DNA of 25,888 nucleotides from a virus: the IMG/VR virus record IMGVR_UViG_3300027233_000018, positions 1 to 25,888 of that record, one strand, 5' to 3'. A program made the translations under genes and the position numbers. Shown piece by piece: positions 1,570 through 25,888 of the stretch. The notes beneath the pieces were generated by a model. It was not told the origin of the DNA. It searched no databases and saw nothing but the letters and a program-made list of their open reading frames with translations. Numbering within the stretch: position 1 is the stretch's first letter; every line of letters starts with the position of its first letter.

Positions 1570-3384
1570 ATGAGTTTAACTAAGATTGGCACTCTACCAG
1601 GTCCTCCTACGAAGCATATTTACGAGAATTCCGATACTGGTGACAGGACGGTAAGTAATTATCCGCTAAATGGAGACGGTACTAGAGCAGGTCAGCCGAC
1701 TTCTAACGCTGAGGCTCAAGATGCTTCAGATAATGCGGCGCTAGGTGCAGATGAAACAGCTGCAGTTGATCCAGTTAATCAAGGTACTTCTGAGAACACG
1801 GCAGTTCAAGGGCCGGCAGATACAAGTGGACCTGGTATTTATGGTAGTTCTGTATTAGATTCTAGAGCTTATGAGATTAAAGATCCAGAAAAAACAATTG
1901 AAGGTGTACAAACTGTTAGATCAAAAACTAACTCATGGACATTATTAAATTATAGAAATTATGTTGGAGGTACTACGTATGGAAGTCCTGAATATGGAGA
2001 TTGGGGAACTGCAGTTGTAGGTACTGGTGCTATGGCAGCAGAAGTTTTAAATCCAACTGCCCATAGAATTGTAACACATTGTGAAGAGAATGGTGGCGTA
2101 GGTTTTTCTTATGCATATAGAGATTTCATACAAACAGAACATTATGGTCAAATATCAAATGAATACTTAATTACTTTAAGAAGGTTTTCATTCCCAGTTG
2201 GAGATGATATTGTAAATGCTAGATCTTATGACGAGAGTGGTGCTGAATTAGATATTTCAGAACCGGATTTAGCTAGAGCTGTGACATGGTTATCACCAGC
2301 GTTAGGAAATGACTTAAAAGAAATACTTTCATTCGGTACTGGATTTGGATGGGAAGAAATTCAATCGTCTGTACAAACTGCATCTGGTGGTAGTAAAGAA
2401 AAGAGAAGAGGTACAATTGGTGCTTTAATTGACGGTAATCCGATTTCCAAAGCTGCAGAGGCTGGTGCAAATGGATATACTGCTTCAGAATCTGATCGTA
2501 TTAATACAATAGGACAACATGATGCACTAGGAGACACATATCCAAATATGGTATATGGACCTTACAATGCTATTAAAAGCGTACTAGCTAGAAATGATAA
2601 AGGTCTTAAATTTGATAATGAATTTAAACTTAACTTTTATTATGACTTAAGAGGATTTGACAATACATCGCCAAAGGTAGTCTTTATGGATGTAATATCA
2701 AACCTATTAGCAATAACATATAACAATGCTCCTTTCTGGGGTGGTGCTGTTAGACACACTGGTGGTAATGGTTCTACTGGTAAACCTTTTGGTGATTTTG
2801 ATAAATTAAAGTCTGGTGATTATTCTGGTTATTTAGGATCAGTAGTTACTCAATTAAAATCTACACTAGGTGCTGGATTTGATGATTTAGGTAAAGCTGC
2901 ATCTGGATTAATGAATGGTAAAGGACTTAATGCCTTAGGTGATTCTAAGATTTTAGATAACATGATTGGTGGAGCCTTAATGAAACATTTAGGTTCTCCT
3001 TCTGGTGGTGATATTATTAAAGCATTCTTAACAGGAGATCCAACAGGACAATGGCATTTAACAGTAGGTAATCCTATGAACCCGATGTTAGTTTGTGGTA
3101 ACCTGTGTTTAGAAAATGCTAAATTTGAATTTGATGGCCCATTAGGTTATGAAGGCTTTCCTAGTAAATTAAAAATGGAAGTAACTTTAAAACCTGGTAG
3201 ACCTAGAGATAAATCAGAAATTGAATCTATGTTTAACGCAGGTAGAGGTAGAATGTACTTACAACCAGAAGTTGAAGGCAAATCATTAGACGATGTATTA
3301 GATATGTCGGCATACGGAAATAAAGACAGAAGCAGGTTAACGCCAGATAGAGCGTTACGTAACTCTGACATGGCAGCAGGATAA
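1570..3384 (+). CDS. virion structural protein, probable tail-tube/baseplate junction component
   Basis: A 604-residue protein opening the structural block. Residues 1-90 are low in complexity (Gly, Ala, Asp, Thr, Asn) and probably flexible. The central part (residues about 100-390) is aromatic and beta-rich. A second flexible Gly-rich stretch lies at about 395-485. The C-terminal part from about residue 490 contains GQWHLTVGNPMNPM, then GPLGYEGFPSKLKMEVTLKP and RPRDKSEIESMFNAGRGRMY. A pattern like this, with a tube-like beta sheet followed by RPRDK and MFN.GRGR, recurs in structural proteins of contractile tails as far as I recall. The role next to the tail tube (gp48/gp54 or hub-associated) is inferred from position directly before gp53-, gp27- and gp5-like genes. 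No enzyme motif is visible. The stop is followed one base later by the next ATG. Confidence 0.6.
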   Translation: MSLTKIGTLPGPPTKHIYENSDTGDRTVSNYPLNGDGTRAGQPTSNAEAQDASDNAALGADETAAVDPVNQGTSENTAVQGPADTSGPGIYGSSVLDSRAYEIKDPEKTIEGVQTVRSKTNSWTLLNYRNYVGGTTYGSPEYGDWGTAVVGTGAMAAEVLNPTAHRIVTHCEENGGVGFSYAYRDFIQTEHYGQISNEYLITLRRFSFPVGDDIVNARSYDESGAELDISEPDLARAVTWLSPALGNDLKEILSFGTGFGWEEIQSSVQTASGGSKEKRRGTIGALIDGNPISKAAEAGANGYTASESDRINTIGQHDALGDTYPNMVYGPYNAIKSVLARNDKGLKFDNEFKLNFYYDLRGFDNTSPKVVFMDVISNLLAITYNNAPFWGGAVRHTGGNGSTGKPFGDFDKLKSGDYSGYLGSVVTQLKSTLGAGFDDLGKAASGLMNGKGLNALGDSKILDNMIGGALMKHLGSPSGGDIIKAFLTGDPTGQWHLTVGNPMNPMLVCGNLCLENAKFEFDGPLGYEGFPSKLKMEVTLKPGRPRDKSEIESMFNAGRGRMYLQPEVEGKSLDDVLDMSAYGNKDRSRLTPDRALRNSDMAAG

Positions 3385-3385
3385 T

Positions 3386-4351
3386 ATGAATTTTAGATCA
3401 CTAAGAAATAAAACACAAGGAGACGGCAAATATATTTTTGCTCAACCGTCTATGCTTTTTAGAAATAAAGCATTAGTCAATAGAGGCTTGCGCCTACATA
3501 TAGTTAGAGAAGATGAGGTTACAAGACCTGATTTAATAGCTTTAGAATATTATGGCGATCAAACTAAAACTGATTTAATTCTAAAATGGAATGGTATTTC
3601 GGATCCATTTGGTTTACAGCCAGGGGATGAATTAATTATACCACCATCTGGAGTTGCTTTTACTAAATTAGAGAGACCCTCTGCTTCAGAAGATAATAAG
3701 ATAAAGAATCAATTCTTACAGAGCAAGAGGTTTACTAAAAAAGATCAAAGAAGACTAGATGCTTTAAAAAAGAAATACAACAAAGAAGTATTACTACCTC
3801 CTAATGTTATTCCATTGGGACAGAAAAACTATAAGTTTGATAAAGACGGTAATATTATCTTTGGTGCGCAGGCTCAAAATGGCCCTGTTAATCCAAGGTC
3901 AGGTGGAAATGCAACCGGAGGTTCTGGTGGAAGCGGAAGCGGAAATGGTACAGGATCCGGTGGAACTGATGCAGTAGTTGATGAAATATTTAACGATTTA
4001 GGACAGGACTTAAGAGACAGTGTTTTAGCATCACAAGGATCTGGAAACGGATCGGGCTCAGGTGGAAACGGATCAGGTTCAGGTAATGGTAAAGGATTAA
4101 CTGAAACCCAATTAAACAACTTATTAGATAACAAGTCAGGTGGAAGTGGCCGTGGAAATGGATCTGGAAACGGAACTGGTTCAGGTGGAAACGGATCTGG
4201 AACTGGAAATGGAACTGGAAATGGAACTGGATCTGGAAGAGGTACTGGAAATACAGCAACAAATACAGGTAACAACAATAATTCGGGATCAGCTCCATCG
4301 GGTAGTAATAATGCATCAGGAGTTTCTAACGACGGAGCACCTTGTAATTAA
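3386..4351 (+). CDS. baseplate wedge protein, gp53-like (LysM-like domain) with Gly/Ser/Asn-rich tail
   Basis: A 321-residue protein. Residues about 15-95 match the pattern of T4 gp53-type wedge proteins, which contain a LysM-like fold: HIVREDEVTRPDLIALEYYG, then DLILKWNGISDPFGLQPGDE and LIIPP. In T4 gp53 joins neighbouring baseplate wedges. T4 gp53 is about 196 residues, so this one has a long extension. Residues 100-165 are Lys-rich and polar. Residues 170-321 are a low-complexity Gly/Ser/Asn/Thr tract interrupted by two short helix-like islands, DAVVDEIFNDLGQDLRDSVL (195-214) and LTETQLNNLLDN (238-249). The start at 3386 follows the upstream stop by one base (GATAATATG). The - strand frames under the Gly-rich part are Pro-rich mirror artefacts. 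Confidence 0.72.
   Translation: MNFRSLRNKTQGDGKYIFAQPSMLFRNKALVNRGLRLHIVREDEVTRPDLIALEYYGDQTKTDLILKWNGISDPFGLQPGDELIIPPSGVAFTKLERPSASEDNKIKNQFLQSKRFTKKDQRRLDALKKKYNKEVLLPPNVIPLGQKNYKFDKDGNIIFGAQAQNGPVNPRSGGNATGGSGGSGSGNGTGSGGTDAVVDEIFNDLGQDLRDSVLASQGSGNGSGSGGNGSGSGNGKGLTETQLNNLLDNKSGGSGRGNGSGNGTGSGGNGSGTGNGTGNGTGSGRGTGNTATNTGNNNNSGSAPSGSNNASGVSNDGAPCN
3901..4257 (+). repeat. degenerate GGN-rich repeat tract encoding GSGNGTGSGG-type units
   Basis: Within the gp53-like gene, three blocks (about 3901-3966, 4036-4098 and 4135-4257) consist of irregular tandem GGA/TCT/GGT/AAC/ACT codons that encode Gly-Ser-Gly-Asn-Gly-Thr units. The units are not exact copies, so they have diverged or been selected at protein level. 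Two unique segments of 30-60 bases separate the blocks. Confidence 0.75.
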
Positions 4352-8157: not shown

Positions 8158-10032
8158 ATGCCTGCACTGTGGCCCAAATTTATTCCTGAACTCGCTAATA
8201 CAATAATGAGTCAGCAGTTTACTAAACCAGGTGGAGCGATACTTTCATATCCACTGCCAAAGGTTGGAACTGATCAAGTGCCTATATTTCCCCCATCCGG
8301 AGACTTAATAAAATCTATTGCTCCTGGAAATCCTATCAATGGACAATTAACTACGAATCCTGCAGGGATGATAAACGCTATTAATCTTGCACCACTAAGT
8401 GGACGTTATGATTTTGGTAAAGCAGTTGCTCAACATTATATTGATGCAGTAAAAGGAGCACCAAAAGCTCAAACTCCTTTCGGAGCGTTCCATGCTAATA
8501 ATGGTCTTGCTGAATTAATATTAAAAGAGGGTTATGGTATTGCGTTCGAGCGATTATTAAAAGAGGGAGATATACCTCTAATGGACCAATATGATGAAGA
8601 TGGTAATCTAACAGAAATGGGTAAAGAATCTCATCCTGCATACGCTGACTTTTGTCCAGATGTTGATGCTCCGCCAGATGAAGAGGAGTTAGCAGAAATG
8701 AGAAAGAAGAATGATTTAGCATTTAATAAGTTTGTTGATTCTAAAAAAACAGAATATAATTTACATAAGTTTAGATTCTTTCAATTCCCATGTCTTTTAG
8801 GCGGAGAGTCTCAATCAGATCTAGAAAAGATATTTGCATCTAGACTTTTACAACAGTTTGAAAGAATTACAAATAGAACTACTAAGTGGGAATTCTATAT
8901 CTGGGTAGCATGTCTTGGTAAAGAAAATTATAGCAACTCTAGTGGTTTTGGAGGCGGGTGGTCAGGTATGCCTTATCCAAATATAAACACACAGGCAAGA
9001 ACAGATATTAATGCTGCCGGATATGATTGGAGAAAACTAGCAGATAATGTAAGTAAGTTAGTTACTGATGCTATTTTAGAAGTACATCCTGAAAGAGAAA
9101 CTAATACATCGATGTTTTTTAACACCTCTGTTTTAAAGAGGAGAATTAAAGCCGATCCTTCCGGACCAATTACATTACCACATAATTTAGAATGTCCACT
9201 AAATGAATATAAGATACAAGTACCTTATGATTTTGAACATAGCCCACCGGAAAACCCAAGTGCTAGACCGAAAGTTTTAACATCAAATGTTGTGGCTACT
9301 TTTAGCTGGTACCCAAATAAAAGGACTGGTTCATTTAGTATAAGTAATGCAAATGATCCCCCGATAATCACGAATGCGCCAAAATTTACTAAGACTGAGA
9401 ATTGGGTAAAATCAAAATATGAAAACGATGAGTGGAAAAACCATTGGAGAAAAGTGCCTGCAAATAAACTAGCGGCGGCTGCTCAAAAGCCAGATGCGCA
9501 AGCAGCATTTTTTGAAATTGATCCTAAGCCAGAAGGTACTCTATTTAAATTTGAATATCATAAAGCTAAATGTGCTAAAGAGGCAGCGGCAGCATGTGAA
9601 GAAGATGCGGCAGCAGTCGATCACCCATTTGAACCAAGTGGCACTACGCCTGGTGGTAAATCTTTTAGTGGAGATCCGTATGAAATGATGGCAAAAGTAA
9701 CAATAGCTTATTGGTATGCTTGTATTGTTAAACCATTCGGTCCAATGCCAGCAGCTCTACCAGCAATGATTAACGCTCCATTAGGAGGTTTATACATTCC
9801 AATCTATTATGGAAGTGCAAATAGACTTGCTAACAATTTAAGAAAGGCATGGAATACCGGTAAAGTCTTTAATAAAGTACCTATGACTCAACCGCCAGCA
9901 TTTGCAACATCCACAGCAGTTGCAGGAGCTTATGCCCTGCATCTACTTGAATTTAAACTATTATATCTTGGTGGTATTCCAACACCAGTCGGTCCAGTGC
10001 CGATGGTTGGTTTTGTACCGGTGGTATTTTAA
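8158..10032 (+). CDS. large structural protein of unknown role, downstream of the spike
   Basis: A 624-residue protein I cannot assign to a family. It starts two bases after the spike gene, behind ATAAATAACT, so it is probably co-translated with it. The N-terminus (MPALWPKFIPELANTIM) and residues 80-130 look helical. Residues about 140-200 are acidic and helical (PPDEEELAEMRKKND). The centre (210-410) is aromatic and beta-rich. An Ala/Lys/Cys-rich helical part follows at about 468-500 (CAKEAAAACEED). The C-terminal 110 residues are hydrophobic and Pro/Gly-rich, ending in PTPVGPVPMVGFVPVVF, which could be a tip or an insertion into another subunit. Position suggests a baseplate hub or tail-tip component. 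Its stop codon overlaps that of the convergent gene on the other strand (TTAA, 10029-10032). Confidence 0.55.
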   Translation: MPALWPKFIPELANTIMSQQFTKPGGAILSYPLPKVGTDQVPIFPPSGDLIKSIAPGNPINGQLTTNPAGMINAINLAPLSGRYDFGKAVAQHYIDAVKGAPKAQTPFGAFHANNGLAELILKEGYGIAFERLLKEGDIPLMDQYDEDGNLTEMGKESHPAYADFCPDVDAPPDEEELAEMRKKNDLAFNKFVDSKKTEYNLHKFRFFQFPCLLGGESQSDLEKIFASRLLQQFERITNRTTKWEFYIWVACLGKENYSNSSGFGGGWSGMPYPNINTQARTDINAAGYDWRKLADNVSKLVTDAILEVHPERETNTSMFFNTSVLKRRIKADPSGPITLPHNLECPLNEYKIQVPYDFEHSPPENPSARPKVLTSNVVATFSWYPNKRTGSFSISNANDPPIITNAPKFTKTENWVKSKYENDEWKNHWRKVPANKLAAAAQKPDAQAAFFEIDPKPEGTLFKFEYHKAKCAKEAAAACEEDAAAVDHPFEPSGTTPGGKSFSGDPYEMMAKVTIAYWYACIVKPFGPMPAALPAMINAPLGGLYIPIYYGSANRLANNLRKAWNTGKVFNKVPMTQPPAFATSTAVAGAYALHLLEFKLLYLGGIPTPVGPVPMVGFVPVVF

Positions 10033-10427
10033 CCCCAGTCTTTTTCGAAGGTATACCAATGGTCTGCAGACGCACAGTCCCTACAAGCATCGGCAACAAG
10101 TGTTACCTTATCTTTCATTGTTAACATCGGTAGAATGGCTCCTACGTGCATCTCGATTAACTCACTTGTCGGGAGATATTCAGCCACGTGTCCTGCTATT
10201 CCAGTAATAAGTCGGTATGCATTATCTTCTACAGAATTAAATCTAGTACCTTGGTGATAATCCACATTAGGATCTGTAGTTGCTAGTTCCCATAGTTTTT
10301 CAATACCGATAAGATCTCTAACTTCTTGACAAATCCCTTGGATTGCATCCTTGTGTTTAAGAACTGCCTGGTAACCGGAGCCACCGACTCCATTACATGT
10401 TACTTCATTTACATTAAATTTACTCAT
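10029..10427 (-). CDS. hypothetical protein, 132 aa, antisense to the structural operon
   Basis: The - strand frame reads from ATG at 10427 to TAA at 10029-10031. It is a soluble protein, predicted mainly helical (residues 20-110), with three Cys and two His near the ends (CNGVGGSG at 11-18; CRDCASADHW at 115-124). I do not recognise the family, and CRDC alone is too short to call a zinc site. It is believed real because it begins behind the same 52-bp cassette that precedes the neighbouring - strand gene, has an A-rich leader (AAAACAAAAAAAT) and occupies otherwise gene-free DNA. The shorter + strand frame across it has no leader and a poor composition. It lies convergent with the 624-residue structural gene, the two stops sharing TTAA. 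Confidence 0.72.
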   Translation of the reverse strand: MSKFNVNEVTCNGVGGSGYQAVLKHKDAIQGICQEVRDLIGIEKLWELATTDPNVDYHQGTRFNSVEDNAYRLITGIAGHVAEYLPTSELIEMHVGAILPMLTMKDKVTLVADACRDCASADHWYTFEKDWG

Positions 10428-10432
10428 ATTTT

Positions 10433-10484
10433 TTTGTTTTTAATTACAGTACTAATATACGAAAAATAATTGACATAAAAAAAT
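10433..10484 (-). promoter_or_regulatory. 52-bp repeated promoter/leader cassette, copy 1
   Basis: These 52 bases are identical to 10860-10911. Read on the - strand the cassette ends 5 bases before the ATG of the 132-residue gene. It contains TATATTAG (complement of 10452-10459), one mismatch from the Bacteroidota -7 box TAnnTTTG; I see no clear -33 TTTG element at the usual distance. The last 20 bases (TACTGTAATTAAAAACAAA and adjoining) would form an A-rich leader. The perfect identity, outside coding sequence, speaks for recent copying or strong selection. Confidence 0.6.
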
Positions 10485-10494
10485 CTAGAGGCAA

Positions 10495-10857
10495 TTATTT
10501 TGCAGTAACTAGCAAAGTTTTTTTAGCCTTGATGTGTTTACAATCTCCTCTAAAGAAATTCATTGCCGGGCAATTACAACCCCATGCTCCATTTGCCTCA
10601 GTAACTTCATAGAATTTACCAGGTTTAGAAGACTCTACTTTCCACGTCTTAGCTTTAACTTTAGCTTTAGTAACTACGGGTGTTGGTTTTGGTTTTACTA
10701 TTTTAGCACTCTTGTCAAATTTGATTTGATCTCTAGTAGTTCCTTTAGGTATTGGATGCCATCCTGGACAGACATAAGATTTATCCATTAGATTTACTAT
10801 CGCGAATACGTCACCGTAACAGTGATCTTGCGGGAATGTATATGTTTTATCTGACAT
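10495..10857 (-). CDS. small SWIM-type zinc-finger protein, 120 aa
   Basis: Read on the - strand from ATG at 10857. The C-terminal third (residues about 71-113) matches the SWIM zinc-finger pattern CxCx(n)CxH: KFYEVTEANGAWGCNCPAMN followed by FFRGDCKHIKA, with Cys-Asn-Cys, then Cys-Lys-His. SWIM domains bind DNA or protein partners and occur in bacterial, viral and eukaryotic proteins. The N-terminal half (1-45) carries two further Cys and a His (CYGDVF, CPGWHPIP). A basic linker (residues 50-70, Lys/Pro/Val-rich) connects the two. It has its own copy of the 52-bp upstream cassette and is followed by the 132-residue gene, so the pair may be co-regulated. A role in regulation or host interaction is inferred; the target is unknown. 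Confidence 0.75.
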   Translation of the reverse strand: MSDKTYTFPQDHCYGDVFAIVNLMDKSYVCPGWHPIPKGTTRDQIKFDKSAKIVKPKPTPVVTKAKVKAKTWKVESSKPGKFYEVTEANGAWGCNCPAMNFFRGDCKHIKAKKTLLVTAK

Positions 10858-10969: not shown

Positions 10970-11332
10970 ATGAAAACACCTATTATTAAGTACAGTGATA
11001 AATTTTTAAACAGCATCAGCTGGTTTATGAAAGTTGGTGGTATTACTCTTTGGCCGTTTGTTGTTTTAAGAGAACGATATAATGTACCGAATGCTGATTA
11101 TGGTAAGAGAATTGTTAATCACGAATCTATCCACATTAAGCAACAAGAAGAATTATTAGTTATACCATTTTATATTTTGTATATTATTGAGTGGTTTATT
11201 AAGCTATTCTTTTATGGCAAAGATGCATACTATAATATCTCGTTTGAAAGAGAGGCTTATAGCAATGAATATGATTATGAATACCTTGAAAATAGGAAAA
11301 AGTACGCATGGATAAAACGTGTGGTTAAGTAG
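10970..11332 (+). CDS. small membrane-associated zincin-like (HExxH-type) protein, 120 aa
   Basis: A 120-residue protein with NHESIHIKQQEELL at residues 44-57, an HExxH zincin motif (HESIH) followed by FEREAYSNEYD (residues 90-100), whose Glu could be the third zinc ligand. Between them, residues about 58-76 (VIPFYILYIIEWFIKLFFY) are hydrophobic enough to span or lie in a membrane. Small proteins with HExIHxxQQ, a hydrophobic helix and FEREAY are, as far as I recall, common in Bacteroidota genomes, usually unannotated. Such a zinc metallopeptidase could process a host envelope or phage protein, but substrate and activity are inference. It is divergent from the SWIM gene and opens the + strand part of the island. 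The start at 10970 follows the AGCTAGATAAATA leader. Confidence 0.65.
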   Translation: MKTPIIKYSDKFLNSISWFMKVGGITLWPFVVLRERYNVPNADYGKRIVNHESIHIKQQEELLVIPFYILYIIEWFIKLFFYGKDAYYNISFEREAYSNEYDYEYLENRKKYAWIKRVVK

Positions 11333-11369: not shown

Positions 11370-12662
11370 ATGTCAGACAAAAAAAGACGAAGAATTAATT
11401 CTTCAGCCCCAGAGGCAAACACAGTAGAACTAGTTCAAACAGTTCAAAACCCAAACAACCAGGAAGAAGTAAAAATAGAAACAAAGATCGAAGATGACGG
11501 TCCGGACTATTTACTACCAGATGGAGAATTCGATTGGAACGCGTACGAGGCAACCTGCCCAACAAGAACGCGAAAAGCAAATCCACATATTAAAACCAAA
11601 AACGGAGATAAAGTATTCTCTCGTGAGTCTTATGCTCAAGAGTTATATGATCTCATGGAAGGTACTAATGCATGTGACATCATACCTCAATTATTTATAG
11701 GTGAGATTCATGAAGGTATCATTTATGCAGTGGACCAAGAATATATCACGGTAGATATTAAATATAGAGAGTTAGTCTATATTAAAGCTAATAAGGAATC
11801 AGATGAGGTTAGGCAAATGCTTCCAGGGCAAGAAACTGCAGTTTTAATTACAGAAACTAAAGGTACATTAACTGGTACTATTACTGGTGGTGTAAAACAT
11901 AAAACATTCATGGATCTTAGAGCTGCGATCGACGAAGGCAATACTGCTTGGATCGGTACAGTAAATAACATGATTGAAAATGGTGGTTATATTGTAAAAG
12001 TACAAGGCGTAGATTGCTTTATGCCAGGATCACTTGCAGGTATTAATAAATTATCAGACTTTAGTTCTATCGTTGGAGAAGAATTATATGTTGTTCCAGT
12101 AAGTTTCTCACCAGATAGAGGTACGTTAGTGGTTTCACATAGAAAATATTTACAAGCTCTAATACCGAGTCAAATTAATGAATTAAAAGAAACTCTTGAT
12201 GAACCTAAATCCGGTTTAGTTACAGGTACTGCAAAATATGGAGTATTTGTTGAATTCAATAAATGTTTAACTGGTATGATTCATACAAATGAACTTGATG
12301 AAGCAACATCTGCAAGATTTAAATCTAGAGACATTAAGCCAGGGGAGCCAATTGAATTCTTTGTAAAAGATATTATTACTAATAATAAAATTACATTAAC
12401 TCAAAAGGAAACTACTACAGCTAATCCATGGATCAATATATCAACTAGGTATCAAATACCTTCGGTTATTAAGGCTAAAATTAAGACTAAAAAAGAATAT
12501 GGAGTCTTTGTAAATATTGAAGATGGTGTAACTGGGTTACTGCATGTAAGTGAATTACCTGGTGATACATTAGATAACTATATGGTTGGTGATGAGATCG
12601 AAGTACAAATTACTAGGATTGATGAGGACTCCATGAAGGTGTTTCTTAAACTACCCCAATAA
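11370..12662 (+). CDS. ribosomal protein S1-like protein with four S1 RNA-binding domains
   Basis: A 430-residue protein with four S1 (OB-fold) repeats: about residues 107-172, 188-258, 279-347 and 362-429. The last two are the most typical, with SGLVTGTAKYGVFVEF and CLTGMIHTNEL, then KAKIKTKKEYGVFVNIEDGV and TGLLHVSELP. Residues 1-45 are basic then acidic and disordered. GEFDWNAYE (52-60) resembles the N-terminus of Bacteroidota S1, suggesting capture from a host. Cellular S1 binds mRNA leaders on the 30S subunit; E. coli S1 has six repeats and 557 residues, so this version is shorter. It probably binds RNA; helping ribosomes onto phage messages, or acting as a decoy or replicase factor, are inferences. 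It stands alone in the island behind AGATATATAA, 53 bases before the amidoligase gene. Confidence 0.85.
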   Translation: MSDKKRRRINSSAPEANTVELVQTVQNPNNQEEVKIETKIEDDGPDYLLPDGEFDWNAYEATCPTRTRKANPHIKTKNGDKVFSRESYAQELYDLMEGTNACDIIPQLFIGEIHEGIIYAVDQEYITVDIKYRELVYIKANKESDEVRQMLPGQETAVLITETKGTLTGTITGGVKHKTFMDLRAAIDEGNTAWIGTVNNMIENGGYIVKVQGVDCFMPGSLAGINKLSDFSSIVGEELYVVPVSFSPDRGTLVVSHRKYLQALIPSQINELKETLDEPKSGLVTGTAKYGVFVEFNKCLTGMIHTNELDEATSARFKSRDIKPGEPIEFFVKDIITNNKITLTQKETTTANPWINISTRYQIPSVIKAKIKTKKEYGVFVNIEDGVTGLLHVSELPGDTLDNYMVGDEIEVQITRIDEDSMKVFLKLPQ

Positions 12663-12715: not shown

Positions 12716-14029
12716 ATGCAAAAGTTAAAAAGTAATTCAACAAGGCACGAAGTACTGAATGCCAGTCAAATGGGAATCGAATTTGAGTTCTATTCTAACC
12801 TAGAACTTGAAGAGACGCAAAAGTCTGTATCTAAACTATTAAATAGAAAGATACAACTAGAAGAAAAAGCCCATTCTGACTTTGTACCATCTGCAGATGT
12901 GTTTAAGATGGAACCAGATATGTCTGGTGGCGCAGGACTAATTGAACTTGTGACTGGCCCGATGCCTTATAGGAGTGCCAGATTAGTTATTATTCAAATG
13001 TTAGGGTGGATTCGTGAAAACGGGTACACATCTGATCGAGCATCGATCCACCTTAATATGTCCTTTAATCCTGATTATTTAGAAAAACCAAATATGATAC
13101 AACACATGGACGTGTTGAAATTTATACTTGAGTTTGATGAATCTAGGGTATATAAGTATTTCCCTGGCAGAGAGAATTCTACTTATGCAAAATCTATTAA
13201 ATGGATAATGCCTAAACATGAAGCCTTTTATTACAACGCAGATTTAATTAATAAGGATAACTTTACATTTGCCAACACTAAATATTATGGTATTAACTTT
13301 GAAAAGGCTCAAAGTAATTATTTAGAATTTAGATATATTGGTGGTAAAGATTATGAAAAGAAACAAGAGGATATTCTAACGTTAGCCGATAGATTTATAT
13401 TAGCAATATTTAGATCTTGTAGAGATCCTAGGTTTACAGATGCTAATAAAATAGAGTTACAACGTATTTTAAGAAAGAACGAACCCCTAATGGCGATGTT
13501 AAAAGACTATACCGCCGTAAATAAGCATTGGCCTAAGATAGATATATTAGTAGATTTACAATCAGATCCTACGGTAATTAACGTACAATGGGATAGGTTT
13601 AAACATAAAGTATTAGATTTACTATCAAACGGTACAATGGAAGAGGGAATTATTAACTACGATTCAGATTATTCTACAGTTCAAGTTAAAGATGGTAGGT
13701 TTAAAACTGCATATTTATTAGATGGTTTTGAATTTATAGACTGTGAACTATCAGGTAATATTGAAAACTCAGCAATATATGGAGGGGATATAAAAGGAGC
13801 ACAAGTCCTAAGATCTCAAATATATAAAGGATGTGCAGTTATAGATTCTAAAATAGAATCTTGTTTTGTGCATGGTAGTGTAGAAGTTAAAAACTGTTTT
13901 GTTTTTGGAAGAGATGGTATCTTTAAAGGCAGAATGGAAGGAGGCATCTTTAGAGAAGGCGGTATGGGACCTCATGCCAGAATCTCAGATGAAACCGAAG
14001 TTGTGGTAAGTAAAAAAATAAAATCATAA
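12716..14029 (+). CDS. amidoligase-like enzyme with C-terminal beta-helix-like repeats
   Basis: A 437-residue protein. Residues 19-27 (MGIEFEFYS) match the opening GxExEf motif of the COOH-NH2 amidoligase family, which has a glutamine-synthetase-like fold and uses ATP to form amide bonds. Further hallmarks follow: EPDMSGGAGLIELVTGPMPY (66-85), DRASIHLNMSFN (107-118) and YLEFRYIGGKDYEKKQ (202-217), matching the D.S, ElvTgP, HxN and E.R positions of these enzymes. Residues 240-305 are helical. Residues about 310-412 are a series of short strands with regular turns (FEFIDCELSGN, NSAIYGGDIKG, SQIYKGCAVIDSKI, GSVEVKNCFVFG), resembling a beta-helix. Substrate unknown: modification of a peptide, cell-wall peptide or virion protein is possible. 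The next gene starts one base after its stop, so it may be expressed with structural genes. The amidoligase call is good, activity unproven. Confidence 0.7.
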   Translation: MQKLKSNSTRHEVLNASQMGIEFEFYSNLELEETQKSVSKLLNRKIQLEEKAHSDFVPSADVFKMEPDMSGGAGLIELVTGPMPYRSARLVIIQMLGWIRENGYTSDRASIHLNMSFNPDYLEKPNMIQHMDVLKFILEFDESRVYKYFPGRENSTYAKSIKWIMPKHEAFYYNADLINKDNFTFANTKYYGINFEKAQSNYLEFRYIGGKDYEKKQEDILTLADRFILAIFRSCRDPRFTDANKIELQRILRKNEPLMAMLKDYTAVNKHWPKIDILVDLQSDPTVINVQWDRFKHKVLDLLSNGTMEEGIINYDSDYSTVQVKDGRFKTAYLLDGFEFIDCELSGNIENSAIYGGDIKGAQVLRSQIYKGCAVIDSKIESCFVHGSVEVKNCFVFGRDGIFKGRMEGGIFREGGMGPHARISDETEVVVSKKIKS

Positions 14030-14030
14030 A

Positions 14031-14873
14031 ATGAGTGAAATTAGAAGCGGCAATGAAAATAACTTAAACGTTGGAAGAAGTTTCGGCGATGGTTGTTTAA
14101 ACGCATTTTTACAAGAGCTTGGTGATGAGCTAACTGGAGCATGTATGGTCCCAGTAAATTTACCACAGAGAGAAATAGTGAATATTATTAAAAGAGCTAA
14201 GAAATGGTTCTATAAACAATATGAAGATTCTGTACTAGAAAATTATTATCATATACCAAATGCTGTGTTTAGCAGTGAATATTTTAAAAAGAATAGAACA
14301 TTAAATTTACCTGGAGCAAGTGAAGATGGATCTGGGTCTGTATTTTCAGTATTTGGAGTACACGATATTGCATCTGGTTTTGGTTCAACCGGTGGTGGAT
14401 TAGATGTTAGATTTCAAAGCGGTGGAGACTTTGCAGTAGAGAAGATGTTATTCAGAGGAATGTACGACGGATCTGGAGCAGCAGAATCTGCAGAAGAATT
14501 AGAATATTATGTACTAAATCAGTCTTTAGCAGATATGGCTAGACAGATTTTAGAAAACCCAATTTCTTTTCAATACTCTAGACTGACTGGAGAGCTAAAG
14601 ATAATGGGAGATACTCCGAAGGGAGATCTGATACTTGATGTGTACGAAACGATTCCGGATTGTGCACTATTTGACGACGAAATCTTTTTTAGATATTGTT
14701 CTGCTAAGATTAAGCAATCACTAGGCGCTAAGCTTGGTATTTTTAAGTTTGCATTACCTGGTAATGTGGAATTCGACTACGACGCAATAAAAGACATGGG
14801 AGACACCGAATTAGAGTCAATTATTGAGGAGATAAAGGGAGACGAAGGAGTGGACTGGATGTTTCACTCATAA
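14031..14873 (+). CDS. putative virion structural (connector/neck or baseplate) protein, 280 aa
   Basis: A 280-residue protein starting one base after the amidoligase stop. Residues 47-75 contain REIVNIIKRAKKWFYKQYED, an amphipathic helix with aromatic residues, followed by a Gly/Ser-rich loop region (95-145). A second helix (160-180, LADMARQILENP) precedes SFQYSRLTGELKIMGDTPKG (residues 181-200), a strand pair often seen in head-tail connector and neck-type proteins. The C-terminus is acidic. Size (T4 gp14 has 256 residues) and the place before gp25 and gp6 suggest a structural role; a neck protein is one option, a baseplate component another. I could not confirm either. There is no enzyme motif. 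Confidence 0.5.
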   Translation: MSEIRSGNENNLNVGRSFGDGCLNAFLQELGDELTGACMVPVNLPQREIVNIIKRAKKWFYKQYEDSVLENYYHIPNAVFSSEYFKKNRTLNLPGASEDGSGSVFSVFGVHDIASGFGSTGGGLDVRFQSGGDFAVEKMLFRGMYDGSGAAESAEELEYYVLNQSLADMARQILENPISFQYSRLTGELKIMGDTPKGDLILDVYETIPDCALFDDEIFFRYCSAKIKQSLGAKLGIFKFALPGNVEFDYDAIKDMGDTELESIIEEIKGDEGVDWMFHS

Positions 14874-14893: not shown

Positions 14894-15250
14894 ATGGATT
14901 TTTATATAAAATACATAGGAGACCCTAATTATCAAACTGGCATTGTTCAAAACGTAAGTGAAGTTGAACAGTTACTAGCTCAGATAGAAACAGTTCTTTT
15001 CACAAGAAAGAGAGATGTTTTAGGTGCTCCAGGATTTGGTTGTAACTTAGAAGATATTGTATATAGTTTAGGTCAAAATGAATTTCAAATTAAAAATGAA
15101 ATACAGGGGCAATTAGCTAACCACGTACCTCTTGCTAGTAAGTATAGAGTTAGTGTAAGCGTTAAGTTTATGCGAGGTGAAGTTAGGGATGTTGCGTTCA
15201 TTGATATTACTGTTAACAACGAGTATATAATCAAAGTAAATTTAAGATAA
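14894..15250 (+). CDS. 25: baseplate wedge protein gp25-like
   Basis: A 118-residue protein of the gp25/GPW family, with the usual length (T4 gp25 has 132 residues). LFTRKRDVLGAPGFGCNLED (residues 35-54) is the family's central motif. It is followed by a helix with EIQGQLANHVP and a C-terminal strand pair (YRVSVSVKFMRG, DVAFIDITVN). gp25 forms part of the inner baseplate ring and provides the site where sheath polymerisation starts, next to gp6 and gp53. The gene lies 7 bases before the gp6-like gene, the same order as in many contractile phages and related injection systems. Its ATG follows ATACATATATAA. Confidence 0.88.
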   Translation: MDFYIKYIGDPNYQTGIVQNVSEVEQLLAQIETVLFTRKRDVLGAPGFGCNLEDIVYSLGQNEFQIKNEIQGQLANHVPLASKYRVSVSVKFMRGEVRDVAFIDITVNNEYIIKVNLR

Positions 15251-15257
15251 ATAACTA

Positions 15258-17087
15258 ATGGCAGAATTAAAATTTTTAAGCACACTAAAAATATCGGCTA
15301 ATCAAATCAAGACCGATGCTCGAACATATATCTCGAGGGTATATAAACGTGCAAACACTTTATTTAGTGAAGCGTCGCCATTTGCTCAGATTATCTCTGT
15401 TATGGCAGAGCTCGGTGAATTAATAATGTTCTATATAGAAGACTCTTTAGTAGAACAAAACATATACACTGCTCAGCAGCCAGAATCTATATATGGTTTA
15501 TCAAGGCTAACAGGACATGATGCGACTAGAGGCTTTGCAGCAACCGGTGAGATAGAGTTTAGATGGAAAGTTGGAGCAGATCTTAGTAAGGTTGCAGGTA
15601 CTGGATTAAATATTGATGCCAGATCAGAATTACAATGTGAATTAAATGGATTAACTTATACTTTACTATCTTCACAAGAAAAATTCAGATTAGAAAAGGC
15701 TAATAAGTATAACATAAAATGTGCAATCATTCAAGGTAAATTTGAAAAGCAAACCTTTACTGGAACTGGAGAATCAATGCAATCATATAATATACAAACA
15801 AGCTCTTTAACAGATCATTCTAAAGTTAGTGTTTCTATAAACGGTGAAAAATGGACGAAGCATGATTCTATGTACGATCTATTAAATAACGAAAAAGCAT
15901 ATATTCTTAAAACAGGTATTTCCGGTGGCCTTGATGTTTATTTTGGAACTGGTAATTTTGGAGCACTGCCTCCAGCTGGATCTGCAATAGAAATTGAATA
16001 CATTAAACATGCTGGATTTCAAGGTAATTTAGATGATGCACAAGACATCACATTTAAATGGGATGCAGAAGGATCGGATTCTAACGGTGATGAGTTTGAT
16101 TTAAATGAATATTTAGAAATGACTGTAACATCATCTCCTAAAATGGGAGCTGATAAAGAGTCAACTGATTTTACAAAGTTAATGGCCCCTTTGGCGTCAA
16201 AATCATACGTTCTAGCGACACCTGATAACTATGAGTATTTCCTATCAAGATATGGAATGTTCTCGTATGTGGATGCTTACAACACGACTGCGGATCAATA
16301 TTTAGATGATGATAACGTAATTTATATTTTTGCTATCCCCGATGCTAGAAGAAAGTTATTAGCAGATCAAGATTATTTCTCAATACCAATGAATGAAATG
16401 TTTTTTGATCAGAATGAATATGACAAAATGTCACAAGTAATTCAGGATAGTGGACAACAAATGGTTACGACTGAAGTAGTATTTGTAAAACCACAGGTTA
16501 GAAAATATAGTATGGATATTAATATTAGATATTTTGAAGGATATACTAAACAAGAAATATTCGCTGATGTTAGAGTAGCAGTAAGTGATTATATGCTTAA
16601 TATTACAAGAAGAGATAAATTGCCTAAATCAGATATAGTGTATATCCTAGAATCGATTGATGGTATTGATGCAGTAAATGTGAGATTTATATCTGAAACA
16701 GAAGAGACTGCAAGAAGATTAGGCTATTATGAGTCTAAGACTGTTACTGTTGTACCACAAGAACCTGTAGTTCTAGAAGAGATAGGTAATGGTAAACAAA
16801 AATATATTTTCTTTAAACAAATAGAAGAGGTTAAGACCGTAACGGTTGATGCGACTACTGCAATTCCGTATACTGTAGCTGGATTAGATGAGTGGGGTGA
16901 TATTATTATGGAAAAGGAAGAAGTTGCAGTCTTTAGAGGCGGATGGCAAGACCGAGATGGTGATCAAATCGTTGACGAGGCTTTAATGAATGCAGAAGCT
17001 GCACTTTCAGTTAATTTTGACGCAGTAGCTGTACCTAGAACTATTTACACTAGAGTACAGGCTGGAAATAGAAAATCCTTAAAATAA
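15258..17087 (+). CDS. 6: baseplate wedge protein gp6-like (baseplate J family)
   Basis: A 609-residue protein, close to T4 gp6 (660 residues). Residues 1-75 are the helical N-terminal part (ISVMAELGELIMFYIEDSLV, then EQNIYTAQQPESIYGLSRLT) typical of gp6/gpJ. A beta-rich central domain follows at about 90-255 (TGEIEFRWKVG, YILKTGISGGLDVYFGTGNF, GSAIEIEYI). The C-terminal part contains TTEVVFVKPQVRKYSMDINI (residues 410-429) and EIFADVRVAVSDYM, the J-type wedge core. gp6 makes the continuous ring of the baseplate inner part as a dimer and changes shape when the sheath contracts. It stands directly behind gp25, and its stop overlaps the next ATG by one base (TAATG). The start follows AGATAAATAACT. 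Confidence 0.85.
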   Translation: MAELKFLSTLKISANQIKTDARTYISRVYKRANTLFSEASPFAQIISVMAELGELIMFYIEDSLVEQNIYTAQQPESIYGLSRLTGHDATRGFAATGEIEFRWKVGADLSKVAGTGLNIDARSELQCELNGLTYTLLSSQEKFRLEKANKYNIKCAIIQGKFEKQTFTGTGESMQSYNIQTSSLTDHSKVSVSINGEKWTKHDSMYDLLNNEKAYILKTGISGGLDVYFGTGNFGALPPAGSAIEIEYIKHAGFQGNLDDAQDITFKWDAEGSDSNGDEFDLNEYLEMTVTSSPKMGADKESTDFTKLMAPLASKSYVLATPDNYEYFLSRYGMFSYVDAYNTTADQYLDDDNVIYIFAIPDARRKLLADQDYFSIPMNEMFFDQNEYDKMSQVIQDSGQQMVTTEVVFVKPQVRKYSMDINIRYFEGYTKQEIFADVRVAVSDYMLNITRRDKLPKSDIVYILESIDGIDAVNVRFISETEETARRLGYYESKTVTVVPQEPVVLEEIGNGKQKYIFFKQIEEVKTVTVDATTAIPYTVAGLDEWGDIIMEKEEVAVFRGGWQDRDGDQIVDEALMNAEAALSVNFDAVAVPRTIYTRVQAGNRKSLK

Positions 17088-22692: not shown

Positions 22693-25600
22693 ATGAACAC
22701 TAACAATTCCATATCTAATTCCTTAAAGAAGCTTTTAGAAATTAATACTAATTCTCTAAAGACATTTGAAAGAATCAACGAAGCAGTAACTACTAATGCG
22801 AAATCTATTCCATTAGAAATACTGACCGACGAGGGTACTAAAATAGTATCAATTCCTGGGTTTGGTTATATGAAACAAGAATTACTAAGATTAGATAATA
22901 ATCTTAAAGCACTTGCTGGATTAGGAAAAGGTAGCACTAAAGTAAAATTACCAGATGGTACTTTTCAAAATATTATTACAACTTCATTAAAGACTCCTGC
23001 TAATGATATTACTACATTAGCTAGACCTACTTCATTTGCATCTAAAGCAAACTATTTTGCTGAAGACTTTTTAAACCCAATGTTAACTACATCTATTGAT
23101 GTAAGCGGTCAAATACCAAATGATACGGAAAGGATTCTTGTTAAAAGAATTTTATTCGATGGAACAAATCAAGTTGCTGTAGATTTCTTTAACGAGAATT
23201 ACAGAGACCAGGATGGCATCGATTACTTAACGGCAATTAGAGATATTGTCAATAATAATATAGCATATACTCTTGACGAAGAATTAAGAGATATGCCTTA
23301 TAGAACTACACAATATACTGGAAAGTTTGACGTTCTATCAATTTCAAATTCTAAGAGAGAAGTTATTGAAGCTGGTGTAACTAAAAAACAGGCTATAAAA
23401 TTATACACATTAGATAGCTTAACTTATTCAGATAATAATAAAGACTTAGACTCTACTGAATTACTTCGCGTAGGAGATCAATTGATGGTCACTGGCGGTT
23501 CTAAAAACACTAGATATGTAATTGACAGGCTGGATTCTTCGTCTAGACAGGTTGAGCTTAGATTAGTCGAAGGCTATGAAGCTATTAAAATTGGAGCAGG
23601 TACTTTATCTTTATCAATCTACAAGACTGAAGATAACAATTTAAGTATTGAAGTTCCTGTAGGATTTGATGAAAGAATCTTAATGTTTGTAAAAGCAGTT
23701 GATGCTGAATCAAAAATCTTAGCTGAGAAATGGTCGCCAGGTGCTGGATTCTATTCAAACGATTTAGAAGTATTACAAGAAGATGGTAGTATTATTTTCT
23801 TATCAGAATTCTATAAAGAGAACGTAGCTGACTTTGGTAAGTTTATTACTTCTATTAAAGAAGATAACATTCCTCCGGCAACAGTTGGTGTTACACCAGA
23901 TGCTCCGGAATTAAATGGAGAGAACTTTAAAGTAGTTCAAATCAATAAACATTTAACTGAAAATGATGCGGCTGATAAAATTAAGAAATTATCTGCTGAT
24001 AAAATATCTGTACAAGAGGCTATTAAAAAGCTAGACGAAACGATTACTAAAAAGAGATCGGTTATTGCTAGTACTAAATATGCTTCTCAAGTACAAAAAG
24101 ATAAAGATAAAAATGAGTTAATAGCTTTAATAGAAGAAAGAGCTTCTGAGGCAAAATTATATAACTCGATTGTAACACAAATACAAGCGTTATCTTCTTC
24201 TTCAAATGCAAAGAATATAAACCCTAAATATAGAGTTAGAGGTTTTTGGAAAGTGCCTACTGCAAAACAAGTTGCTGATACGTTAGATCAAGAAGTTGTA
24301 CAATTTATTATACAATATAGATACCTATCAACATCCGGTAAAGCTGCAGAAGCTGCTCAATTAAAGTTTACTGTTGATGGTAGAGATAAATCTGCAATCT
24401 TCTCGAACTGGAATGAGCGTAAAGGCAAAGTAAGACAAAGAGCTAAGACTATTAATAGCGATGGAACTATCGAAAAGAGGTTTACATGGCAAGCTAGTAA
24501 AATAGAAGACGGTCAAGAGATCAACTTTAATCAATTAGATATTGCAATTAATCAAGGAGAACTAGTAGAAATTAGAGCTAAATCTGTTTCTGAGGCTGGA
24601 TTCCCTGGTAACCCAATAATGTCTGATTGGTCAGAGCCAGTAACTATTTCATTCCCAGAAGAAGAAATCGATACAACCGATGTTGCTGCAGTAGTTCAAG
24701 TTAATACTGCTGAATTAGCAAAAGTACAAATTACTGAAGAATTAACAGGGCAAGGAGTATTCACTCACGTTAGTGATGCATTTACTGCAAATGAAAACTA
24801 TTATGCTCACGTTGCAACTAATATTGCATCAGGGTTCTTATCTCCAGAACAAAAGCCAATTTCTGTATATGACAAGATAGCGGAGCTTGAAGCTCAGATC
24901 GCAGGTCTTAAAGGTACAGTTGAAGCTGAAGTTGGAGAATTAGTTGTTAAAGTTGTAACAGAAGACGGAACAGTAACAAATATCAATAAAGATACTACGA
25001 CTCAATTATTTGCAGGATATTATGTTGATGAGGTTGCAGATTTAACTGTAAGAAAGGGACATATTGTAACTAAAACATTTAAGCTACAATTAGAAAATAG
25101 TAAATCTACTAAATTGGAATTAGTTTCTAGACTAATTGGTGATAGAAGCAAACCTGTATATAGATCTATTAGTGGTGGAACAGATGCGTCTACGAATAAG
25201 TTTGGTATTGAAAACGAAACAAATTCTACAGATGCTAACATTGATACTAAGGTTCAAAGAGATAATTATTATTTAGAAGAAGGTAACTATGATTTAGTTC
25301 CGGTTCAATATCAAAATATTTCATCTGGAGACTTTGAAAAAACCTCAGACGCTCCATATCAATCTGCACAAAGAAGAGGTCAATTTATCTATAGTAGATA
25401 TATGGATATTGCAAACCAAAATCCGCATTACATGACATCTGCGATTGGCAATGAAGGTGATGGTAATATTGTTAATTATGAACACAATCTTTCAAATACA
25501 GGCTCAGGTGCCGGTGGTGGCGTATGGCCATCAAGTGCTCCGGCAACAGATGAGAATAATAACTTTATATGGTCTGGTGGATTTGCAGACGGTGCTGGTG

Positions 25601-25888
25601 AATGGAGTAAAGATAAAGTAAATGTATCTCCTATTAGTGCAGTAACTGTTAATCAATATAACTCTGGATTGTTTGTACATAAAGACCACCCTAGTTTAGC
25701 TAATATATGGGATGGCGCAGTAGATAGTGGTAATTTTGGGAACTACTCATTTACCAACGTAATTGAATCTATGATATTTTCAATGCCTAAAACTGCAACA
25801 TTAGCTACCGGAGCAACTTTATTTAGTATTTTTGGTTCAGGTGCTGATAGTAACAATCAAACTCAGGCTAAACAACAAATAGCATATC
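22693..25888 (+). CDS. large fibre/baseplate protein with coiled-coil and fibronectin-III-like parts, cut by the window end
   Basis: An open frame runs from ATG 22693 to the last base (1065 codons, no stop). The start is one base behind the upstream stop in the same GATAATATG junction seen at 3386 and 17358. Residues 1-140 begin with a helical segment (NSISNSLKKLLEINTNSLKT). Residues about 140-410 are beta-rich. Residues about 414-508 form a coiled coil (DKIKKLSADKISVQEAIKKL, KDKNELIALIEERASEAKLY). Residues about 510-656 show a fibronectin-type-III-like pattern, ending in GELVEIRAKSVSEAG and DWSEPVTISFPEE. A second short coiled coil follows at about 725 (DKIAELEAQIAGLKGTVEAE). The remainder has Gly/Asn/Ser-rich surface-type sequence. 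It is probably a long tail fibre or an outer baseplate protein; the C-terminal receptor-binding part lies outside the window. Confidence 0.7.
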   Translation, partial: MNTNNSISNSLKKLLEINTNSLKTFERINEAVTTNAKSIPLEILTDEGTKIVSIPGFGYMKQELLRLDNNLKALAGLGKGSTKVKLPDGTFQNIITTSLKTPANDITTLARPTSFASKANYFAEDFLNPMLTTSIDVSGQIPNDTERILVKRILFDGTNQVAVDFFNENYRDQDGIDYLTAIRDIVNNNIAYTLDEELRDMPYRTTQYTGKFDVLSISNSKREVIEAGVTKKQAIKLYTLDSLTYSDNNKDLDSTELLRVGDQLMVTGGSKNTRYVIDRLDSSSRQVELRLVEGYEAIKIGAGTLSLSIYKTEDNNLSIEVPVGFDERILMFVKAVDAESKILAEKWSPGAGFYSNDLEVLQEDGSIIFLSEFYKENVADFGKFITSIKEDNIPPATVGVTPDAPELNGENFKVVQINKHLTENDAADKIKKLSADKISVQEAIKKLDETITKKRSVIASTKYASQVQKDKDKNELIALIEERASEAKLYNSIVTQIQALSSSSNAKNINPKYRVRGFWKVPTAKQVADTLDQEVVQFIIQYRYLSTSGKAAEAAQLKFTVDGRDKSAIFSNWNERKGKVRQRAKTINSDGTIEKRFTWQASKIEDGQEINFNQLDIAINQGELVEIRAKSVSEAGFPGNPIMSDWSEPVTISFPEEEIDTTDVAAVVQVNTAELAKVQITEELTGQGVFTHVSDAFTANENYYAHVATNIASGFLSPEQKPISVYDKIAELEAQIAGLKGTVEAEVGELVVKVVTEDGTVTNINKDTTTQLFAGYYVDEVADLTVRKGHIVTKTFKLQLENSKSTKLELVSRLIGDRSKPVYRSISGGTDASTNKFGIENETNSTDANIDTKVQRDNYYLEEGNYDLVPVQYQNISSGDFEKTSDAPYQSAQRRGQFIYSRYMDIANQNPHYMTSAIGNEGDGNIVNYEHNLSNTGSGAGGGVWPSSAPATDENNNFIWSGGFADGAGEWSKDKVNVSPISAVTVNQYNSGLFVHKDHPSLANIWDGAVDSGNFGNYSFTNVIESMIFSMPKTATLATGATLFSIFGSGADSNNQTQAKQQIAY

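Follow-up and report, generated by a model that had tools for sequence, protein, structure and literature searches.

The stretch of DNA analysed here (the window) is an entire virus record of 25,888 bases and encodes, between genes for tail components, an enzyme of the amidoligase type fused to a C-terminal beta-solenoid (Table 1). The strings GIEFEFYS, ELVTGPMP, SIHLNMSF and YLEFRYIGG, which the initial annotation had read as the motif series of COOH-NH2 amidoligases, are all present in the frame, and the assignment stands: the Pfam score lies above the cut-off and a glutamine-synthetase (GS) core was modelled. The description of the gene as lying inside a tail operon is also right for the window, where a head-tail adaptor (neck) gene starts 1 nt past the end of the amidoligase frame and baseplate genes are found on both sides.

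Table 1 Features of the window and of the encoded amidoligase
Feature	Position	Strand	Basis or description
604-aa gene, head of the upstream baseplate cluster	1570-3384	+	
Homologue of 30S ribosomal protein S1, upstream	11370-12662	+	S1 domain, E 1.6e-20
Hairpin behind the S1 gene, before the amidoligase start codon	12673-12709	+	15 pairs in three runs; -11.7 kcal/mol, z -3.5
Amidoligase/beta-solenoid fusion gene, 437 aa	12716-14029	+	Open frame, ATG start, Pfam, structure model
GS-like catalytic domain, residues ~8-239	12737-13432	+	VIA Z 11.7, invariant motif residues
Catalytic-domain motifs			G20-E22-E24, P67-D68-S70-G71-G72, E77-T80-G81, H112-N114-S116
Further catalytic-domain motifs			R152, K159, K162, K189-Y190-G192-N194, E204-R206
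Helical linker, residues ~240-305	13433-13630	+	Secondary structure of the model
C-terminal beta-solenoid, residues ~306-425, pentapeptide-repeat-like	13631-13990	+	Structure model, VIA, Foldseek
Head-tail adaptor (neck) protein, downstream	14031-14873	+	phrog_211, E 6.8e-10
gp25-like wedge gene	14894-15250	+	Below Pfam's cut-off
gp6/Baseplate_J-like wedge gene	15258-17087	+	

Neighbouring genes and the intergenic hairpin

NCBIfam models of ribosomal protein S1 matched the upstream neighbour with E-values down to 1e-45, all below the NCBIfam cut-offs. The tail genes upstream of the amidoligase include an OB-fold hub gene and the 604-aa gene, whose product had no match in PHROG or Pfam; the latter is followed by a protein (3386-4351) that resembles LysM and baseplate-wedge proteins and ends in a long stretch rich in Gly, Ser, Asn and Thr. 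Two reverse-strand genes (10029-10857), one with a weak match to a SWIM zinc finger, lie amid the tail cluster in a slot that is variable and in L029 holds a 700-aa ORF. A small gene at 10970-11332 matched phrog_15610, labelled protease (E 1.7e-27), with no match in L036 and L058, and an ORF running past the end of the window (22693-25888) matched phrog_29329 of unknown function (E 1.2e-137). A PADLOC search with the amidoligase and four neighbours gave no match, and at gathering scores no part of the window matched Rfam.

The hairpin between the S1 and amidoligase genes is conserved in sequence across the aligned rows. These rows covered 37 of the 40 distinct sequences from that region; L002, L016 and L144 were left out, and by eye L144 has no such hairpin. 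Among five relatives folded, z ranged from -3.3 to -5.2 in four and was 0.4 in L081. Covariation was slight, with changes on both sides in one of six consensus pairs, and this, together with L081 folding no better than shuffles, led us to demote the hairpin as a candidate element. In 12 of the 13 LR745206-like rows listed (e.g. L084, L117, L124), TAATATATA was found a few bases 5' of the amidoligase start codon and is possibly a promoter or leader signal.

Family assignment and predicted structure

The match to Amidoligase_2 (PF12224) covered residues 18-130 and scored 22.2 bits (cut-off 22; E 1.4e-4), and only 12 of 40 relatives were matched at E ≤ 0.01. When seven records were searched at genome level with PF12224, no score exceeded the cut-off; two records gave E ≤ 0.1, one at the known amidoligase and one elsewhere, and the known amidoligase was missed in the remaining records, so the search is unfit for counting copies. 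Given the score near the cut-off, the fraction of relatives matched and the seven records without a score above it, the family is, judged by its sequence, a divergent branch of PF12224. An NCBIfam search with the amidoligase protein gave no match.

An AlphaFold2 model built from an alignment of 40 sequences reached a pLDDT of 91.8 and a pTM of 0.85 over the full length, and structural comparison recovered the GS core. With VIA, model residues 8-239 matched 8fbp_O (Z 11.7, rmsd 3.2, 182 aligned) and 5dm3_C (Z 11.7, rmsd 3.5), and the best Foldseek match in the PDB was a glutamine synthetase (E 7.9e-4). Among the 50 BFVD matches listed, 22 were named amidoligase and many carried no name; rank 1 was A0A6J5PQ40, which matched end to end (TM 0.87), and ranks 2-46 were aligned over 229-383 columns. 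The model also agrees with the earlier view of an enzyme joined to a beta-helix-like domain, as it has a two-domain architecture with residues ~306-425 forming a beta-solenoid.

Modelled alone, the C-terminal 132 residues again gave a beta-solenoid (pLDDT 92.9). Foldseek placed mostly pentapeptide-repeat proteins in the top rows, with nothing at E ≤ 0.001. The VIA scores (4kh3 10.0, 2j8k 9.5, AhQnr 9.1, Ag43b 9.1, QnrB1 8.4, MfpA 8.4 and AlbG 8.2) fall in the range where, by VIA's own caution, repeats with Z under ~13 may reflect only a common arrangement; 5b04_J, at the top of the list with Z 10.3, was discounted for its rmsd of 11.3. At the sequence level, Pentapeptide_4 matched 15 of 40 relatives, the window protein had no match to the Pfam pentapeptide-repeat families, and a profile search of PDB sequences returned seven rows up to E 10, all over the solenoid, with AlbG as the best (E 0.02). 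The domain is thus probably a solenoid of the pentapeptide kind with mixed structural neighbours, as far as the model can tell. The initial annotation had noted a beta-helix-like character and called it typical of virion or surface-binding parts; the solenoid is nearer to cellular pentapeptide-repeat and autotransporter proteins than to virion parts, and a single tailspike appeared among its VIA matches (Z 6.7).

Relatives and conservation of the catalytic residues

A tblastn search requiring ≥80% query coverage found relatives in 6 of 50,697 phage records at 31-39% identity. All six are uncultured phages of 462-735 kb, two of which (735,411 bases each) yielded an identical match, and five of the accessions are megaphages by name in the accessible part of the source (PMC9723777). 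In IMG/VR, 98 of 99 stretches were confirmed from an initial scan and at least 547 of at least 598 from a scan with a profile; with two distant members as queries, 28 and 6 loci were found. From the genome contigs collection, none of 22 pattern-matching stretches was confirmed. In LR756501.1, a 692-aa frame at 617797-618402 on the minus strand (L273, L274) weakly matched the family's solenoid in two places (E 0.02 and 0.08).

Conservation was assessed in a sample of 147 loci, the window being the first; L080 and L141 were left out, and 145 of the 148 profile hits were kept at a length of ≥400 aa. As these 145 loci include near-identical contigs, residues were counted over the 100 distinct proteins. 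Of 37 motif positions, chosen from columns previously seen to be conserved, 29 were invariant in all 100 proteins: G20, E22, E24, P67, D68, S70, G71, G72, E77, T80, G81, H112, N114, S116, K135, E142, P150, R152, Y157, K159, K162, K189, Y190, G192, N194, E204, R206, Y207 and G209. The other eight were kept in most of the 100 (K64 99, E66 98, P82 79, S110 96, S160 93, Y191 94, F205 88, G210 99), and the motif residues are retained among sequences of as low as 31% identity. E22 and E24 would correspond to E129 and E131 of glutamine synthetase, H112 to the metal ligand H269, and E204 and R206 to the pair E357/R359. A chance occurrence of the motifs is excluded by the GS core found with VIA, the alignment to a reference profile described below, and the invariance of the residues. 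The initial annotation would have failed on a fold without the GS core or on unconserved catalytic positions; the modelled core (Z 11.7) and the 29 invariant positions speak for it on both counts.

Genomic context of the amidoligase gene

The loci fall into two sets, a window-like group and an LR745206-like group. An S1 homologue lies immediately upstream of the amidoligase in 109 of the 145 loci, with a gap of 48-59 nt in 107, and in three more the upstream side is at the contig end. The neck gene follows immediately downstream in 112 of the 145, separated by -14 to +7 nt. Because these loci had been found by the amidoligase itself, sampling was repeated from the neck gene, confirming 90 of 94 stretches; the 80 kept are close relatives only, with many contigs identical to the earlier set. 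Among them the amidoligase lies upstream of the neck gene in 79 of 80, or in 79 of 79 informative cases, as the last locus has a single upstream base. Within one huge-phage group, linkage between the two genes is tight.

The remaining 33 full-length loci, with 27 distinct proteins, come from other lineages (L082 and L142 form one lineage). In 32 of them, relatives of the tail genes occur no farther than 6 kb from the amidoligase, the exception being a 735-kb phage with its nearest tail-gene match ~10 kb off. The 604-aa gene has a relative within 6 kb in 29 of the 33 loci, and in 20 it lies divergently at 0.5-0.64 kb. The tail genes of huge phages are scattered: four of the five records fetched have gp6 at a distance of ~170-450 kb from the amidoligase. 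With tail genes so dispersed, coincidence could more readily place one of them close by, and the 32 of 33 is a raw count. In 28 of the 145 loci the gene upstream of the amidoligase is on the reverse strand, so the amidoligase is often its own unit. N-termini of the capsid-targeting type were seen on many LR745206-like genes (e.g. L084 13350, L134 7377 and L138 7699).

Phages with related tail genes

Relatives of the gp6-like protein were found in 49 phage records and those of the 604-aa protein in 31, including phages of Tenacibaculum, Chryseobacterium, Flavobacterium and Prevotella (Lak) as well as PAU; the relatives of these two baseplate genes hint at a Bacteroidota host. Whole-record searches with the family profile and PF12224 found an amidoligase in none of seven phages with related tail genes (Tenacibaculum phages PTm5 and pT24, PAU, MaF61, MA9V-1, Lak-C1 and Lak-B6). 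The family profile found the amidoligase in all five huge phages and missed those of LUZ24 and phiEco32, both found by PF12224, so very distant amidoligases could escape the search. The absence from all seven suggests that such a tail does not need the enzyme, which weakens the case for a function in tail construction as such. From these comparisons the amidoligase appears to be an addition in one lineage, and tails of this type can do without it.

Comparison with the amidoligase cassette of small phages

In all 12 annotated small-phage reference regions, the amidoligase is grouped with one or more further genes encoding a ligase, a glutamine amidotransferase or an ATP-grasp enzyme, where we take the GP100 cassette gene annotated as D-Ala-D-Ala ligase to be ATP-grasp. 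According to the accessible passages of two papers, such a gene group is a cassette for modifying peptidoglycan, with prevention of superinfection as its proposed role (PMC5498523, PMC10580990), and that of UFV-P2 is described, in the part of the text available, as an early module. GATase_6 and COOH-NH2_lig were each found in none of the five huge phage records and in both small-phage controls (LUZ24 and UFV-P2), on which grounds the standard cassette was rejected. A RimK-type ATP-grasp gene was found in one of the five records by a search that missed the annotated RimK-domain gene of LUZ24 and placed that of UFV-P2 below the cut-off; it lies in LR756501.1 (86996-87481, minus strand, L158; E 6.3e-22), ~154 kb from the amidoligase. 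In the window and the sampled loci, the gene position also departs from the early or replication-region placement typical of the cassette.

An alignment by hhalign to the single amidoligase of UFV-P2 covered only a meaningless stretch (probability 0.3%) and was rejected. A reference profile of 13 LUZ24/phiEco32-type amidoligases, built after this failure, was aligned over residues 77-228 with E 2.6e-4 at a probability of only 42%; a local rerun gave residues 61-228 with E 4.5e-4 (33%), and reversing the reference columns gave E 0.25.

Proposed function and alternative explanations

Our preferred reading, to which we assign a probability of roughly 40%, is that of an active ATP-dependent ligase acting on a phage protein during morphogenesis. 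The gene would encode a catalytically intact COOH-NH2 ligase of the GS fold; judging from the fold and the invariant residues, a carboxylate would be activated by ATP-dependent phosphorylation at a two-metal site and then coupled to an amine, with the C-terminal beta-solenoid possibly serving as a docking arm for the substrate or a partner. The enzyme would belong to the virion-morphogenesis programme of one huge-phage lineage, added onto an older tail and probably expressed late. Within such a programme the likeliest substrate would be a phage protein made simultaneously, either a part of the neck, baseplate or tail or the S1 homologue encoded next door. We counted in favour of this reading the GS core, the invariant motifs, the linkage to the neck gene, the nearness to tail genes and the missing cassette partners, and against it the seven of seven tail relatives without the enzyme, the scattered tail genes, the 735-kb phage with no tail gene close by, the reverse-strand genes upstream in 28 loci, the near-identical contigs among the loci and the replacement of His by Asn at position 114. 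A narrower proposal is that the ligase covalently attaches an amino acid or peptide to a protein of the neck, baseplate or tail (or to the phage S1), with the solenoid docking; it is rather unlikely to hold, and if correct it would mean that phage structural proteins are post-translationally modified by an amidoligase.

That the enzyme alters the side chains of peptidoglycan, or a different molecule on the host surface, for instance to block superinfection as proposed for phiEco32 and LUZ24, strikes us as rather unlikely. The ligase family is common to the window and those phages, such a role has been proposed for their enzymes in the accessible parts of PMC5498523 and PMC10580990, and it would suit an enzyme dispensable to the tail itself; however, with the two cassette partners missing and the gene lying among tail genes outside such a cassette, the cell-wall substrate that the initial annotation had listed as one option is weakened. 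A substrate in the translation apparatus, with the enzyme modifying the adjoining S1 homologue in the manner of RimK, would fit the position of the S1 gene directly upstream in 109 loci and its presence in all five huge phages; we consider it improbable, as four of the five huge phage records have at least ~48 kb between the S1 gene and the amidoligase, and the conserved hairpin between the two genes may split them into separate expression units.

The initial annotation had further suggested an association of the enzyme with the particle, by targeting or as cargo, which was not borne out in the window: the N-terminus lacks the capsid-targeting pattern, and the solenoid resembles cellular proteins more than virion parts. 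That the protein is packaged, ejected into the host and acts there on a host molecule is also improbable. It draws on the LR745206-like group, where KYS[DE][KE]F stands at or near the start in 29 of the 30 amidoligases listed (absent in L086, and in L125 placed after an upstream in-frame start) and where 26 of 399 distinct ORFs fit a T4-like capsid-targeting pattern compared with 2 after shuffling. However, the pattern was composed after the sequences had been seen, only two of the 26 matches (L135 and L138) are amidoligases, the sole ones to match, and in the window-like group, the window protein included, none of 699 ORFs fits (2 after shuffling). A former enzyme that now serves as a structural or chaperone-like part would be in keeping with the tail-gene context, the solenoid and the Asn at position 114, yet is very improbable given that the other motif residues are retained in sequences down to 31% identity.

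Relation to known systems

The core fold is common to glutamine synthetase and gamma-glutamylmethylamide synthetase (VIA Z 10.6-11.7 over 174-209 residues at 8-16% identity, among the 50 matches listed), to which the window protein adds the solenoid. A beta-solenoid, as predicted here, is also found in the pentapeptide-repeat proteins MfpA, Qnr, AlbG and NP275/276 (VIA Z 8.2-9.5); other solenoids score equally (4kh3 Z 10.0, Ag43b 9.1), and that of the window is fused to a ligase. The closest relation over the whole length, among the BFVD matches listed, is the uncharacterized A0A6J5PQ40 from an uncultured Caudovirales phage, aligned over 438 columns with TM 0.87/0.86 and 21% identity. Unlike the T4-like internal head proteins that are ejected, the window protein has no N-terminal match to the capsid-targeting pattern used. 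In the accessible parts of the literature, amidoligase was found beside pentapeptide repeat only within a reference, and in that on huge phages, among the matches listed, only within a reference title.

The Amidoligase_2 enzymes of LUZ24, phiEco32 and PaP3 carry the GS-fold motif series in identical order, and 12 of the 18 invariant positions of the LUZ24 type coincide with invariant positions of the window family, three (G-x-E-x-E) placed by eye and nine from alignments. The LUZ24-type invariant residues E37, L56, R57, G187 and G259 have no counterpart among the invariants of the window family, and H100, the second His of HxH and invariant in the 13 reference enzymes, corresponds to N114, which is Asn in 100 of 100 proteins. 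Phage amidoligases have previously been read as cell-wall modifiers within multi-enzyme cassettes. Compared with these cassette enzymes, the window amidoligase looks intact, stands by tail genes without two of the partners, pairs with the neck gene in one huge-phage group and carries a C-terminal solenoid. It is thereby a defined candidate, open to testing, for an enzyme that modifies proteins as phages assemble, and its substrate can be sought among a small number of proteins encoded nearby. The gene is real and conserved, and it represents a new architecture and a new setting for a known enzyme fold.
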